Shown here: positions 42,335-47,688 of the stretch, piece after piece
Layout of the letters: each line of letters starts with the position of its first letter
Position numbering within the stretch: the first letter of the stretch is position 1
Origin: Leptolyngbya sp. DLM2.Bin15
GTDB lineage: Bacteria; Cyanobacteriota; Cyanobacteriia; RECH01
Direction: 5' to 3'
Assembly (NCBI GenBank): GCA_007694125.1
Contig: RECH01000224.1
Location: 1-51,665 of the forward strand
Length of the DNA: 51,665 nucleotides
Notes under the pieces: model-generated
What the model was told of the DNA's origin: nothing
Database searches by the model: none
What the model saw: the letters and a program-made list of their open reading frames with translations, nothing else
Made by a program: the position numbers and the translations under genes

Positions 42335-43243
42335 CTATTCTGGCAGCCAAAGATAATCTGCTAGGGGTGGGAATGGGGTATCAGACGGCAAGGTTGACGC
42401 TGCAGGCTCATCACCTATGGGTGTGTCACTGAATAAAAGCGATCGCTGACGGAAGTTGGGCCGGTCATCCAGCCGCCGCTGCACACGGCTAGGGATGCCA
42501 TAGTGGTAGACAATATGTCCCCGCCCAGCTAGGACGACCATGACCGTATCAGGGCGATCGCTCACAAAGTCGGCGATCGCTTCCGCCATGGTTTCATCCC
42601 AGAGCACCTGAGCGAGAAAGAAGTTTTCAAACCCTTGGCTATGCCCGTGGGAATGCTGGGCGTAGAGATCCCCTAAAAGCTGGCGATAGCCCACGGAACT
42701 GGTATCCAGATCTTGGATGGCTGGCACCCAGCGATAGTCATCGGGCTGAAGACCTAGCAGGCCCTTTTGGGCCACCCGTCGGGTAATTTCCGTGGGGGTA
42801 TTCAGGGCCACCACCGGCAGTTGATGGGCTTGGGCAAAGCGCAGGATCGGCGCATAATATTCCCAATCGTAGCCCCAGCGCTGATCATACTCCGTCTGTT
42901 CCCGGAGTTCAGCTTCGCTAATGTCACCGGCAAGGTAGTGATCAAGACTGGCTTGGAACGGACGCTGGATCATTTCTAGACCGATCGCTAGGTCGGGATT
43001 GCGATCGTAGAGCTGTTGGATAATCGCTAACTGGCTGGCGTGGTCGGCGGCTTGATTATGGGTTTCCCCCAAATACACCACGTTCATCTGGGCAAGATCG
43101 TCTAGCACTTGATCCACCGTCACGGTTTGCATCCCATCTCGTAGATTAGACACCGTTTGGGCCGAGCTACCCAGGGGCGCAAAGACCACTAAGGCAATGG
43201 ACAGGCTAGACAAGAGAGCGATCGCACGGGCAGAGATAGACAT
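42335..43243 (-). CDS. ChaN-family (heme-binding uptake-like) exported protein
   Basis: This 302-residue protein has a signal peptide (ALLSSLSIALVVFAPLGSSAQ). The conserved block VVYLGETHNQAADHASQLAI is typical of the ChaN/PhuW-like fold. It is followed by LAIGLEMIQRPFQASLD, YDQRWGYDWEYYAPILRFA, LPVVALNTP and a C-terminal VMVVLAGRGHIVYHYGIP. Related proteins are iron-regulated lipoproteins binding heme. No lipobox cysteine is visible here. Role in iron or heme handling is family-based. The gene is divergent from the downstream ECF41 operon region. Confidence 0.88.
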   Translation of the reverse strand: MSISARAIALLSSLSIALVVFAPLGSSAQTVSNLRDGMQTVTVDQVLDDLAQMNVVYLGETHNQAADHASQLAIIQQLYDRNPDLAIGLEMIQRPFQASLDHYLAGDISEAELREQTEYDQRWGYDWEYYAPILRFAQAHQLPVVALNTPTEITRRVAQKGLLGLQPDDYRWVPAIQDLDTSSVGYRQLLGDLYAQHSHGHSQGFENFFLAQVLWDETMAEAIADFVSDRPDTVMVVLAGRGHIVYHYGIPSRVQRRLDDRPNFRQRSLLFSDTPIGDEPAASTLPSDTPFPPLADYLWLPE

Positions 43244-43435
43244 AGTAGGCGCTGTGGATGGGCGTATCTTCTATCATGCCTGAATGCTATAGAAAACGTG
43301 CGTTCGACTGGCATACCCACGGTCATCCGAAGCTGGTTGAAGGAAAGAAAGCAATGACTAGCCAGATTGATCCGCTACCTGAAGATTTGACCCTGATGGA
43401 CGGACAAAACCCCTGCGATCCTGATTCTCAAGTAG

Positions 43436-43534
43436 GTTGGGTTAGCGTCAGCGTAATCCAACGCAATCTAGGCTGGTACTGGGTTTGACGTTGCTCAACC
43501 TGGCCTAGGCAAAAAGATTTGTCAGTCAATCAGG
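43436..43534. repeat. Dispersed intergenic repeat, copy A
   Basis: It begins with an imperfect palindrome GTTGGGTTAGCG (43436-43447) and CGTAATCCAAC (43452-43462), a form widespread in cyanobacterial intergenic DNA. The segment 43480-43534 is identical at 51 of 55 positions to the reverse complement of 51611-51665 at the window's right end. Confidence 0.8.
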
Positions 43535-43542
43535 ATTTGACC

Positions 43543-43569
43543 TGTCACACCAGGTGCGTTTGATTCGTC
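43543..43569 (+). promoter_or_regulatory. ECF41-type promoter of the sigma-factor operon
   Basis: The sequence TGTCACA (43543-43549), a 16-base spacer and CGTC (43566-43569) match the promoter described for ECF41 sigma factors. It points into the operon starting at 43608, which encodes an ECF41 sigma factor, so autoregulation is likely. Confidence 0.85.
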
Positions 43570-43607
43570 TTATGGATGAAGGCCAATTTTAAGACTAAGG
43601 GCAAGCT

Positions 43608-44078
43608 ATGCAAACTCGACTAGATCTGGAGCAGACTAATCCAGCCGCCTATCGGGCTATGATGCAGCTAGAACGGCATGTCAGGGGGAGTGGTCTTGAT
43701 TCGACCATCCTAGAGCTGATTAAAATTCGGGCTTCTCAAATCAATGGCTGTGCTTTTTGCATCGATATGCACACCCAAGATGCCAGGCTAGACGGTGAAA
43801 CCGAGCAGCGCATCTATGCGCTCAATGCCTGGCGCGAGACGCCATTCTTTACCGCCGAAGAACGGGCCGTACTAGCTCTAACAGAAGCAGTTACGCTAAT
43901 TGCCTCAAGTATTGTCTCTGATGCCATCTTTGACGACGTCAGCCGCTACTTCGCACCGAATGACATTGCCAAGCTGCTCATGGCAATCGTCACGATCAAC
44001 AGTTGGAACCGTATTGCCATTACAACCCAAATGTTACCGGGTTCTTATCAACCACAACCCGTCAAAGCTTCTGTTTAG
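43608..44078 (+). CDS. Carboxymuconolactone decarboxylase/AhpD-like protein
   Basis: This 156-residue helical protein belongs to the AhpD-like CMD superfamily. The redox CxxC pair is Cys48 and Cys51 in NGCAFCIDMHTQDAR, with His55 close behind; this is the alkylhydroperoxidase core motif. The remainder (FFTAEERAVLALTEAVTLI, then IVTINSWNRIAI) fits the family. CMD genes are the most frequent partners of ECF41 sigma factors, in the group known as COE genes. It is the first gene after the ECF41 promoter. It probably handles an electrophile or peroxide, but the substrate is unknown. Confidence 0.92.
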   Translation: MQTRLDLEQTNPAAYRAMMQLERHVRGSGLDSTILELIKIRASQINGCAFCIDMHTQDARLDGETEQRIYALNAWRETPFFTAEERAVLALTEAVTLIASSIVSDAIFDDVSRYFAPNDIAKLLMAIVTINSWNRIAITTQMLPGSYQPQPVKASV

Positions 44079-44108
44079 TTGAATGTAATTCACAGGAAAT
44101 CTATTGCT

Positions 44109-44723
44109 ATGGCACATCTATTACACATTGATGCCAGTCCTCGGGGGGAGCGATCGCACTCTCGCCGCATGACCCGCGAGTTTGTTGAACAATGGCAGCA
44201 GGTTCACCCCAAGGATACTGTCACCTATCGAGATCTGGGCCGCAACCCGGTTCCCTACGTCGATGAACCCTGGATTGCGGCGGCGTTCATGCCACCCGAA
44301 GAGCGATCGCCTGAGATGTGGGATGCGATTCGCCTTAGCGATCAGCTCGTAGACGAATTCTTGGCTGCAGATATCTACGTGATCGGTGTTCCGATGTATA
44401 ACTTCAGCGTTCCTGGCGTTTTCAAATCATACATTGACCAGATTGTACGGATTGGCCGCACGGTCGCCTACGGCACAGATGACTCTGCCAACTCTGTATT
44501 CAAGCCGCTAGTCTTAGGTAAGAAAATGTTTGTTGTCGAATCTCGCGGCGACTCTGGGTTTCAACCCGGTGGGCAATACGAGATGATGAATCATCATGAT
44601 CCTTATCTCGTCACTGTTTTTGGGTTTATTGGCATTACCGACATCACCTTCATTCATGTTGGCAACGATGTCGAATCGATATCTAGCGCGCGCACCCAAA
44701 CCATTGAACTACTGGCTACTTAG
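44109..44723 (+). CDS. azoR: FMN-dependent NADH-azoreductase-type flavoprotein
   Basis: This 204-residue flavodoxin-fold quinone/azo reductase has the N-terminal FMN phosphate loop HIDASPRGERSHSRRM. The FMN-contacting VPMYNFSVPGVFKSYIDQIVRIGRT and the SRGDSG region are typical of AzoR. Such enzymes reduce quinones by two electrons and protect against thiol-reactive compounds. The frame is open to a TTG at 44079, but the ATG at 44109 gives the conserved start. It lies 30 bases after the CMD gene and 28 bases before the sigma gene, so it is part of the operon. Confidence 0.93.
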   Translation: MAHLLHIDASPRGERSHSRRMTREFVEQWQQVHPKDTVTYRDLGRNPVPYVDEPWIAAAFMPPEERSPEMWDAIRLSDQLVDEFLAADIYVIGVPMYNFSVPGVFKSYIDQIVRIGRTVAYGTDDSANSVFKPLVLGKKMFVVESRGDSGFQPGGQYEMMNHHDPYLVTVFGFIGITDITFIHVGNDVESISSARTQTIELLAT

Positions 44724-44751
44724 CGTGATGTAATCAATCGCCTAGATTTCT

Positions 44752-45630
44752 ATGAGTGATCTAAAAACCTTCAACCAATACCGCCCGCTACTGTTCTCAA
44801 TCGCCTACCGCATGTTGGGAACCGTCACCGATGCTGAAGATATGGTGCAAGAAACATTTCTGCGCTGGCAACAAACCGCAGAAGCCCAGGTAAGATCTGC
44901 CAAAACCTATTTGTCAACCATTACTACCCGTCTCTGTATCGACTATCTGCGCTCTGCCCGCGTGCAGCGAGAGCAGTATGTGGGGCCGTGGCTACCTGAG
45001 CCAATGCTGACCCAGCAAACGTCAGGCTCAACTGATGTGGTGGAGTTAGCAGATACTCTCTCGACAGCCTTTTTAATAGTGCTAGAAAAGCTCTCGCCCC
45101 TAGAGCGAGCCGTATTTCTACTTCGAGTTGTCTTCGACTATGACTACGACGAGGTGGGACATATTGTGAATAAGACCCCAACCTATTGTCGGCAACTGGT
45201 GCATCGAGCCCGACAGCACCTAACGTCCCAGCGGCCTCGCTTTGAAGTTGCGCCCCAGCGACAGGAGCAACTCGTAGAGCAATTTCTCCGGGCGTGCCAG
45301 CAGGGTGACTTGCAGGGTTTGATTAAGCTGCTCGCCGAAGATATTACATTCTGGTCAGATGGCGGCGGCAAGGTATCCGCTGCTCTGAAGCCTGTTTATG
45401 GGGCGGTAAAAGTTGCTCGACTGTTGCTAAACATTCGGCGTCGCAAACCGCCTTCAACGCGCGATTATCCAGCCGAGATCAATGGTCAGGTAGGAATGCT
45501 TCACTTTGTTGATCATCAACTTTCCCGCGTGTACACCTTTGACTTTACTAGCGATCGCATTCAGTCGATTTACATTGTGGGCAATCCTGACAAACTCAAG
45601 TCATTGAGACAAGACTTGCCCGTCAATTAA
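44752..45630 (+). CDS. sigJ: ECF41-family RNA polymerase sigma factor
   Basis: This 292-residue protein has sigma-2 (about 8-72), sigma-4 (about 103-155) and a C-terminal SnoaL-like extension (about 170-292). All three class signatures are present: WLPEP at 80-84 between the sigma regions, DGGGK at 203-207 and NPDKL at 278-282. In ECF41 proteins the C-terminal domain replaces a separate anti-sigma factor and controls activity in cis. No anti-sigma gene is nearby, in line with this. Its predicted target promoter lies at 43543-43569 ahead of its own operon. The name SigJ follows general annotation use, not demonstrated orthology. The ATG at 44752 is the natural start. Confidence 0.95.
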   Translation: MSDLKTFNQYRPLLFSIAYRMLGTVTDAEDMVQETFLRWQQTAEAQVRSAKTYLSTITTRLCIDYLRSARVQREQYVGPWLPEPMLTQQTSGSTDVVELADTLSTAFLIVLEKLSPLERAVFLLRVVFDYDYDEVGHIVNKTPTYCRQLVHRARQHLTSQRPRFEVAPQRQEQLVEQFLRACQQGDLQGLIKLLAEDITFWSDGGGKVSAALKPVYGAVKVARLLLNIRRRKPPSTRDYPAEINGQVGMLHFVDHQLSRVYTFDFTSDRIQSIYIVGNPDKLKSLRQDLPVN

Positions 45631-45687
45631 ACACCTCAATGTTCTATCTATAGCCAAACCAAATGTAAAATCATGGAGGAATTGATC

Positions 45688-46407
45688 ATGGCTAACAAAC
45701 AGTCGGTTTGTACCACTTGTGGCTACAACATGATTGGTGAAATGCCAGATGTTTGTCCGCTCTGCGGGGCCAAACATGACCATTTTTTGACCTGGGATGA
45801 AGTCGAGAAAACCTATCGCGTGACGCCCTATCGGGTCAATGACTATGTTGCCCAACTAGTGTCTGTCCCTCGTTTGGGATTTGAACATGCGGCCTATTGC
45901 CTTGACACCGATGAGGGTGCAGTTTGGATTGATTGCCCCTCTGCCTTCAATCGAGACTTGGAGCCAATAAACGCAATCTACTTCACCCACCCAGATTTTA
46001 TGGGTGCATCTAACCAGTATCGTGAACTCTGGGGCGCAAAGGTTCATCTGCACGCTCTGGATACTGATGTTCCCTATGCGAGGCCATTTCCTGTCGATCG
46101 CCAGTTTTATGGTGATTTCAGCGAGGGTGGTCTTGAAGCCTTCCATATTGGTGGACATTCACCAGGTTTCACGATTTATATCTACAAACAGGTGTTGTTT
46201 ATCTGTGACTATGCCGAACCTCCAGGGGCTAAGATGCGTCTTAACCCCTTTGGACCCCGAGACGAGACGTTGCGAGGCGCAGAGCGAATCCTAGAGGTGA
46301 TTGCGGAGCGATCGCTTGAAACCGTCTGCGGTGTCAACTTTGTTACCGATTTTGAGAGCTGGCGTGAAGATTTTAAGCACCTAATCGATCGAGTGAAGTC
46401 TCCTTAG
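45688..46407 (+). CDS. Rubredoxin-like zinc-ribbon fused to a degenerate metallo-beta-lactamase domain
   Basis: This 239-residue protein has an N-terminal rubredoxin/rubrerythrin-type ribbon using Cys8, Cys11, Cys23 and Cys26 (CTTCGYNM, VCPLCGA), then an MBL-like domain (about 45-235). The MBL zinc signature HxHxDH is not intact: the matching place reads THPDFMG (100-106), although the later HIGGHSPG and an FICDYA motif remain. This suggests loss or change of the metal site. The ATG at 45688 is chosen because GGAGGA lies seven bases upstream; an ATG at 45673 overlaps that site. It follows the sigma gene by 57 bases and ends the operon. An electron-transfer or sensor role is possible but unproven. 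Confidence 0.8.
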   Translation: MANKQSVCTTCGYNMIGEMPDVCPLCGAKHDHFLTWDEVEKTYRVTPYRVNDYVAQLVSVPRLGFEHAAYCLDTDEGAVWIDCPSAFNRDLEPINAIYFTHPDFMGASNQYRELWGAKVHLHALDTDVPYARPFPVDRQFYGDFSEGGLEAFHIGGHSPGFTIYIYKQVLFICDYAEPPGAKMRLNPFGPRDETLRGAERILEVIAERSLETVCGVNFVTDFESWREDFKHLIDRVKSP

Positions 46408-46608
46408 TCGGCGAAAACACTTAAATAACACACAGACGTAACGCTCAACACCAAGCGTTCTCTCTGCAAAACCGATGTAGGTGCTCTACACCATCTTTTC
46501 GGATGCCGCCGTCATGTGCTACTGGAACACCGCCCCTAGGAACATGTGGGGGCGGTAAGGACGATCGCCAACGATGTTGAAGCTCGTCGTACCGGCGACT
46601 ATTTGCTG
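46408..46608. other. Region downstream of the ECF41 operon
   Basis: There is no clear terminator directly after the operon. ACCGCCCC (46529-46536) and GGGGCGGT (46549-46556) form an 8-bp hairpin that could serve as one, or could mark an old IS end. No gene is seen. Confidence 0.4.
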
Positions 46609-46962
46609 CTAGGCATTGAGCAAAAGTCCGATGCCTAGCTGATTGGTATCTGTACCCTGTTTAAGGTCGTCGGTGTTGTCAGGGGTGAGGGTGACGTTGA
46701 GCGGTGCCCCCTGCTCATTGACTACCAAATTCAGCTTGAAACCCAAGAACCAATCCACCAAGGTTTTGCCGTGAACTGCCAGTTTCGCAAAGACTCGGTG
46801 CCGAGGAATCCGACGATTATGGCAGACCTTGAGCGAGGTGCTATCGATGAAGCTGATCCCCGTGCATGGATTAAAACAGTGCTTGAGGTAAATGCATCAT
46901 GACACCAAGGCAGAGGAGCAGAAATCATCCATAGGGCAGAACAGTTTTTCTAAACTAGACAT
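46609..46962 (-). pseudogene. IS982-type transposase remnant
   Basis: On the minus strand an ATG at 46962 begins MSSLEKLFCPMDDFC, a typical IS982-family N-terminus. An in-frame TGA follows after 18 codons. The same frame then resumes with the catalytic block FIDSTSLKVCHNRRIPRHRVF, followed by GKTLVDWFLGFKLNLVVNEQG and NVTLTPDN, and stops at 46609. Most of the N-terminal domain and the region after the second catalytic block are missing. It cannot encode an active transposase. Confidence 0.8.
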
Positions 46963-47016
46963 AGGTGGGGCTTGCTGGATATAGTTTGACACTTTCCAGC
47001 TTATACAGCCCCACCT
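46963..47016. repeat. Inverted repeat flanking the transposase remnant start
   Basis: AGGTGGGGCT (46963-46972) pairs with AGCCCCACCT (47007-47016), and an inner GCTGG/CCAGC pair extends the stem. It begins right at the transposase ATG. It may be part of the old IS end or leader. Element boundaries and target duplication could not be identified. Confidence 0.6.
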
Positions 47017-47688
47017 TTTCTGTTGCTCTTAACCCGAACTGAGGGGCATGAAGATGTGTCAGTCAGTCAGCGTAGGAACAAGGACGTAGAACCATGGAAA
47101 CGGCTTCTTTTCTACCCTGCTGGGCGTCAGAGGGGGGAGGATGAGAGGGCTGTTTGCATATGTGCAAGCGATCGATTCTGTCACAAGGGACTCATCAAAA
47201 ACTCAGGTTGCCGTGCCACGATGGAACTCAAGAGGCACAGTTAGCCCTGCGGTTAGTCCAGTCTACAGTGAGCCTCACGCCTAATAGTGAGCCTCATGCC
47301 CATGGATAGGCTGATGGCAGGATGTAGGGATATCAGCATCCCCGTAATCTGAGGAAGCAAAGGTGTATCCCTTCATAGTCCTCATCACAACGCTCTCTCA
47401 CCATGTCTTAGTCCCTCATGGCTTATGCAAGATCTGCGGTGCGACAGCCAGTTGTTGTCTATCGACGGTCTTATCACCAGGCCATCCAGCTAGGGAATGC
47501 CCTCCGTAGATATACTGAAGAAATTTGGCAGTCTCCGGTTATACAGCATAAGAATTGGTGATATTCGGCACGCCAGCACGGTCTAGAACCCTGTAGGATC
47601 CGGGAAGCTGGCGGTTCAACCCTCGCAAGCTTGTAGTCATTGGCCTGATTCACGTCCGTACCACTGCGTATTATTCTCCCAACTTGGT
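47017..47688. other. Decayed region between IS remnant and ABC gene
   Basis: About 670 bp without a supported gene. It contains a 19-bp-period tandem repeat at 47267-47300 and low-complexity remains. Short open frames here show no domain. It probably represents former IS or gene debris. Confidence 0.45.
47267..47300. repeat. Tandem duplication, period 19 bp
   Basis: AGTGAGCCTCACGCC at 47267-47281 is repeated as AGTGAGCCTCATGCC at 47286-47300 (14 of 15 identical), separated by TAAT. Confidence 0.8.

Follow-up and report, generated by a model that had tools for sequence, protein, structure and literature searches.

A probable autoregulated ECF41 sigma factor operon, with a rubredoxin-like fourth gene, in Leptolyngbya sp. 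DLM2.Bin15

An ECF41 sigma factor gene that lies behind CMD and azoreductase genes, with the sequence TGTCACA-N16-CGTC ahead of all three, raises the question whether this locus forms a closed regulatory unit and how the unit came to be where it is. COE>ECF41 operons with a TGTCACA promoter were described by Wecke et al. in 2012, two cyanobacterial members included (PMC3426412), and 97 of 107 COE>ECF loci have the motif before the COE gene (PMC3426412). The COE>ECF order and the motif found here match the main layout published there (PMC3426412). The novelty that the earlier note attached to a cyanobacterial ECF41 locus with a promoter-COE-ECF layout was therefore overstated. Beyond this survey, no work on the function of cyanobacterial ECF41 proteins was found in the literature searched. 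Within the window, which is the whole stretch of 51,665 nucleotides that was analysed, the locus is very likely an autoregulated ECF41 operon. Its features are collected in Table 1.

Table 1. Features of the ECF41 locus (positions in the window), and a small gene found at related loci (positions within each locus)
Feature	Position	Strand	Evidence
-35 element TGTCACA of ECF41-type promoter	43543..43549	+	exact match; same place in relatives
-10 element CGTC (43566-43569) in extended form TT-CGTC-TTAT	43564..43573	+	conserved flanking columns
Predicted transcription start region	43576..43580	+	conserved columns 34-37 from motif start
CMD/AhpD-like protein, 156 aa, CxxC-xxx-H (CAFCIDMH)	43608..44078	+	PF02627 E 8.5e-21; TIGR00778
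FMN-dependent azoreductase / NADH:quinone oxidoreductase type flavoprotein, 204 aa	44109..44723	+	PF02525 (Flavodoxin_2) E 1.6e-46
ECF41 sigma factor, 292 aa, with sigma2, WLPEP linker, sigma4 and putative SnoaL-like extension	44752..45630	+	TIGR02957, SigJ NF007214
Rubredoxin-like zinc ribbon and MBL-type protein, 239 aa	45688..46407 (alternative start 45673)	+	PF21349 E 1.1e-8
DDE transposase remnant (DDE_Tnp_1_3)	46654..46896	-	PF13612 E 2.8e-27, translated fragment
3.84-kb stretch absent from two congeners	43297..47137		left homology ends 43296, right begins 47138
Gene of ~136-residue protein at related loci	L008:4579-5001, L009:4594-5001, L010:4594-5001, L016:4594-5001, L018:4609-5001, L037:4582-4986		

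Four genes follow one another on the plus strand, encoding the CMD/AhpD-like protein, the azoreductase-type flavoprotein, the ECF41 sigma factor, and the rubredoxin-like/MBL-type protein, with intergenic gaps of 30, 28, and 57 bases. A ChaN-like gene (42335-43243, minus strand) lies upstream of the operon and diverges from it, and profile matches revealed no anti-sigma factor gene among the neighbours in 42335-46407. The assignment of the sigma factor to ECF41 is borne out by two models that match along the protein, both above their cut-offs, namely TIGR02957 (380 bits, cut-off 323) and the SigJ model NF007214 (341 bits, cut-off 271). It contains sigma2 (PF04542, residues 7-70) and sigma4 (PF08281, residues 111-157) only, followed by a C-terminal extension of ~100 residues that runs up to residue 292. 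The SnoaL-like match of this extension (PF12680) is weak, at 18.3 bits and E 0.0037, below the Pfam cut-off of 27. The closest solved relative is SigJ of Mycobacterium tuberculosis (PDB 5xe7, residues 4-282, with the alignment running through SigJ residue 297), which according to this sequence alignment has the same domain order over residues 4-282 and likewise contains WLPEP and NPDK. In the text of Wecke et al., ECF41 is named by WLPEP and three C-terminal motifs, whose strings are given in a figure only (PMC3426412). All three signatures named in the earlier note are indeed present, i.e., WLPEP at residue 80, DGGGK at 203, and NPDKL at 278. As markers of the group they are unequal: among 25 cyanobacterial ECF41 proteins WLPEP occurs in every one and NP[DE]KL in 23, but DGGGK in only 13, and 62 other relatives carry DGGGK in 48 cases and NPDKL in 43.

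The COE partners listed for ECF41 are CMD proteins, oxidoreductases such as those with Flavodoxin_2, and epimerases (PMC3426412). The two genes ahead of the sigma factor are of listed types (PF02627 and PF02525; PMC3426412), just as the earlier note had proposed. Solved relatives of the CMD/AhpD-like protein are 2ijc and 2gmy, and its CAFCIDMH sequence corresponds to the CxxC that is present in all ECF41-linked CMD proteins (Wecke et al. 2012, PMC3426412). The flavoprotein matches the azoreductase PDB 3keg with an E-value of 1.2e-51. The locus resembles the RSP_0606-ecf41Rsp operon of Rhodobacter sphaeroides and the ydfG/ecf41Bli operon of Bacillus licheniformis in the C-terminal extension and WLPEP linker of the sigma factor, in its CxxC-containing CMD-family partner without an anti-sigma gene, and in the TGTCACA-N16-CGTC/TGTT promoter before the partner gene (PMC3426412). 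It differs from them in the azoreductase gene between the CMD and sigma factor genes, in the rubredoxin/MBL-type gene that follows, and in the extended -10 form common to the cyanobacterial loci.

Does the operon have its own ECF41 promoter? It opens with TGTCACA-N16-CGTC at 43543-43569 (plus strand), as had been claimed. The window contains no other exact match, 0.01 being expected from shuffled sequence, and 38 bases separate the end of the motif from the CMD start. The heptamer TGTCACA is specific for ECF41 (PMC3426412). Conservation was assessed at 20 ECF41 loci of named cyanobacterial genomes and at four plasmid loci. At 17 of the 20 the exact motif precedes the ECF41 operon and is oriented like it, all four plasmid-borne copies have it as well, and the spacer is 16 at every motif-bearing cyanobacterial locus, so that the conservation asked for upstream of orthologous operons was found. 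As to the three remaining loci, the motif lies behind the sigma gene and before an alpha/beta-hydrolase gene in L015, before a nearby SMI1/KNR4-like gene in L037, and is absent altogether from L030. Because the 22 aligned sites were picked by the motif, its own invariance there is uninformative; the evidence lies in the columns around it. Directly before CGTC a T stands in 21 of 22 sites, and it is followed by T (21/22), T (19/22), A (19/22), and T (16/22). A conserved TGAA, at 43577-43580 in the present locus, is kept among the cyanobacterial loci near the expected start, so that transcription would begin within the region given in Table 1. No such pattern is present in the ten bases before TGTCACA, and the extended -10 form is weaker in non-cyanobacterial loci.

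The comparison with Kaiparowitsia implicata (L007), where the same promoter precedes a CMD-azoreductase-ECF41 operon, delimits the conserved region sharply. The homologous DNA extends from 43542, the base that directly precedes the -35 element, to 45596 within the sigma gene, and the 61 bases upstream of the promoter are just 21% identical. The promoter and transcript-start sequence are conserved, and the DNA before the promoter is not. These data bear on an alternative reading, in which a housekeeping sigma factor drives most transcription of the unit from a different promoter and the ECF41 motif would be a minor site or a relic. In its favour, the motif is often missing from orphan ECF41 genes (PMC3426412), and L030 among the 20 cyanobacterial loci is without it. 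Against this, the two promoter halves, the spacer, and the transcript start are conserved where neighbouring DNA is not, and a scan of 43240-46700 for one consensus type found no sigma-70-like site on the plus strand. We therefore regard housekeeping transcription as very improbable and retain the ECF41 promoter.

The proposal that TGTCACA-N16-CGTC occurs only near ECF41 genes, by comparison, had to be given up. Of 18 ECF41-bearing genomes searched, two were duplicates, and in the 16 distinct ones the bare motif gave 36 matches versus 32 for the reversed control pattern; the ECF41 locus accounts for about one match in each genome, and the remainder is at chance level. The genome of Leptolyngbya sp. 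DLM2.Bin15 itself has three matches with spacer 16 and one to the control, again about the chance frequency. Since the bare motif is this frequent elsewhere, it is position and conservation, not the string, that identify the promoter. A wider regulon in this genome was also considered and rejected: of three other matches with spacers of 15-17, none is convincing, as one falls within a reading frame and the TCGTC form is missing from the other two. A second motif copy was observed at a contig end of Mastigocoleus testarum (L101:103-129), closely similar to the one before the SMI1/KNR4-like gene of L037, and perhaps marks a second target.

How such an operon would work can be outlined by analogy. 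The extension inhibits ECF41 proteins, and ligand binding is thought to change its conformation (PMC3426412; 2022 review PMC8999054), upon which the sigma factor activates the COE promoter (PMC3426412; PMC8999054). Without a signal, the putative SnoaL-like extension would keep the sigma factor inactive, until a small-molecule or redox signal lifts this inhibition. The freed sigma factor would then take RNA polymerase to 43543-43569, and a transcript from ~43576-43578 would yield the CMD/AhpD-like thiol protein, the quinone/azo reductase, and more sigma factor, probably along with the rubredoxin/MBL-type protein. The outcome would be positive feedback together with the induction of thiol- and flavin-based redox enzymes. 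In this scheme the inhibition by the extension and the promoter recognition are taken from other species; the gene identities, order, spacing, and promoter conservation were established here. Sigma factor and promoter do share one locus, which is the part of the earlier closed-circuit claim that holds; the circuit itself we infer from characterized ECF41 systems, and operon-wide transcription and a role in redox or electrophile detoxification are likewise presumed. In the two species studied, ECF41 mutants had no phenotype that could be reproduced, and peroxides, paraquat, and phenotype arrays all gave negative results. Quinone, electrophile, or metal stress is our guess, prompted by the enzymes of the operon and by the CusA/CzcA and ChrB genes that neighbour plasmid copies.

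Whether the fourth gene belongs to this unit is less clear. It is probably the last gene of the operon, and is placed in the transcript solely because it follows the sigma factor gene after 57 bases and because no terminator-like site was found between them on the plus strand. Its rubredoxin domain is of the rubrerythrin type, and its relatives are annotated as MBL fold metallo-hydrolases. Judged by eye, the MBL metal motif HxHxDH reads FTHPDF, and since none of the three sequences compared has kept the first or the last histidine of the motif, hydrolase activity is doubtful. A structure model from three sequences was poor (mean pLDDT 44.6). Apart from the genome's own copy, a search of 386 cyanobacterial genomes at E 1e-20 returned no relatives. 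Beyond that search they exist in Iningainema, Chlorogloeopsis, and a Stanieria plasmid, where the gene lies between stress genes, and a Nitrosococcus plasmid has a further homologue. The Iningainema and Chlorogloeopsis homologues are 72-74% identical. Both lie outside the ECF41 operon and not directly behind a motif, the former ~2.0 kb before its sigma gene and the latter ~3.6 kb after, and both are adjoined by an AraC-type regulator gene. It is accordingly possible, if on the whole somewhat improbable, that the fourth gene is an unrelated neighbour outside the operon that perhaps arrived with the transposase remnant. Kaiparowitsia, the closest relative, has no such gene behind its sigma factor, where the homology stops at 45596, and homologues usually stand apart from ECF41, on plasmids near stress genes or near AraC-type regulators. 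The shared strand, the short spacing, and the lack of a terminator-like site argue for membership instead, and so does the fact that Iningainema and Chlorogloeopsis keep the gene within 4 kb of ECF41. On balance we favour its inclusion as the last gene.

As to the origin of the operon, a search of 386 genomes of the phylum found the sigma factor in just 6, its own included. In a quick tree the 25 cyanobacterial sequences form one clade (SH-aLRT 94) beside Chloroflexi sequences; L090 and L091, the two most distant matches of the phylum search, fall outside it. The present sigma factor pairs with that of Kaiparowitsia with a support of 100. The operon proteins are 83% (CMD), 83% (azoreductase), and 84% (sigma factor) identical between the two, the core proteins MurI and Pth 66% and 65%. 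Kaiparowitsia has a DUF6463 gene in place of the rubredoxin/MBL-type gene, and the neighbouring genes differ. In two congeners, whose MurI and Pth are 96-98% identical, a search for the sigma factor was negative. Operon and transposase remnant share the 3.84-kb stretch, which lies at a junction that neither congener has; the congener homologues of its left and right flank are on different contigs, and in congener G388 right-flank homology begins at 47191. No other copies of the remnant (46420-47060) were found in the genome. Because the operon is far more similar to that of Kaiparowitsia than the core proteins are, lies at a rearrangement junction, and is absent from the congeners, it was most likely gained horizontally from another cyanobacterium, a reading for which the basis, two core genes and as many congeners, is small. 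Descent of the operon from the ancestor of the genus, with later loss from the two congeners, appears unlikely. The small congener sample leaves room for such losses, but the excess identity to Kaiparowitsia, the position beside a transposase remnant, the lower G+C content (49.7% in the operon vs 54.6% in the window), and the rarity of the sigma factor in the phylum speak for acquisition.

Related gene pairs occur on plasmids. ECF41-azoreductase pairs were observed on conjugative or mobilizable cyanobacterial plasmids (L137, L138, L139, and L140), and two of these pairs have metal-resistance genes nearby, CusA/CzcA efflux in L138 and ChrB in L140. The pairs of pCHRO.01, pGLO7428.02, Chondrocystis plasmid1, and pANSO36B stand behind the same promoter form as the present operon. 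Unlike it, they lack a CMD gene and fall into a separate azoreductase-type subclade of the sigma tree, and their first gene mostly encodes ~230 residues (SMI1/KNR4-like in pGLO7428.02). An SMI1/KNR4-like gene of ~200-230 residues stands directly behind an ECF41 motif at three loci (L066:3648-4346, L138:1601-2296, and L037:5893-6486); its Pfam match is weak in L037 and L138 and missing in L066, and this target type is outside the COE list. At six loci, a ~136-residue protein, hydrophobic by eye, is encoded between partner and ECF41 genes (Table 1), and three examples examined had no Pfam match.

Taken together, the operon is an ordinary, well-preserved example of the known ECF41 switch. What is new is its place at a rearrangement junction, with a transposase remnant alongside and horizontal transfer likely, the fourth gene, which Kaiparowitsia does not have, and a predicted extended cyanobacterial promoter form, YTCGTC-TTAT, with a conserved putative transcript start. 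Tentatively, cyanobacterial ECF41 may be viewed as a mobile, self-contained cassette in which the promoter, an exchangeable set of redox enzymes (CMD, two azoreductase lineages, epimerase, and others), and the sigma factor move together, in part by way of conjugative plasmids on which metal-resistance genes lie nearby, with the rubredoxin/MBL-type target newly added here. The presence of several linked redox enzymes in few cyanobacteria, and on plasmids sometimes beside metal-resistance genes, suggests quinones, electrophiles, and metals as candidate inducing conditions. ECF41 is widespread, and the extended -10 of the cyanobacterial promoter form provides a sharper search pattern.
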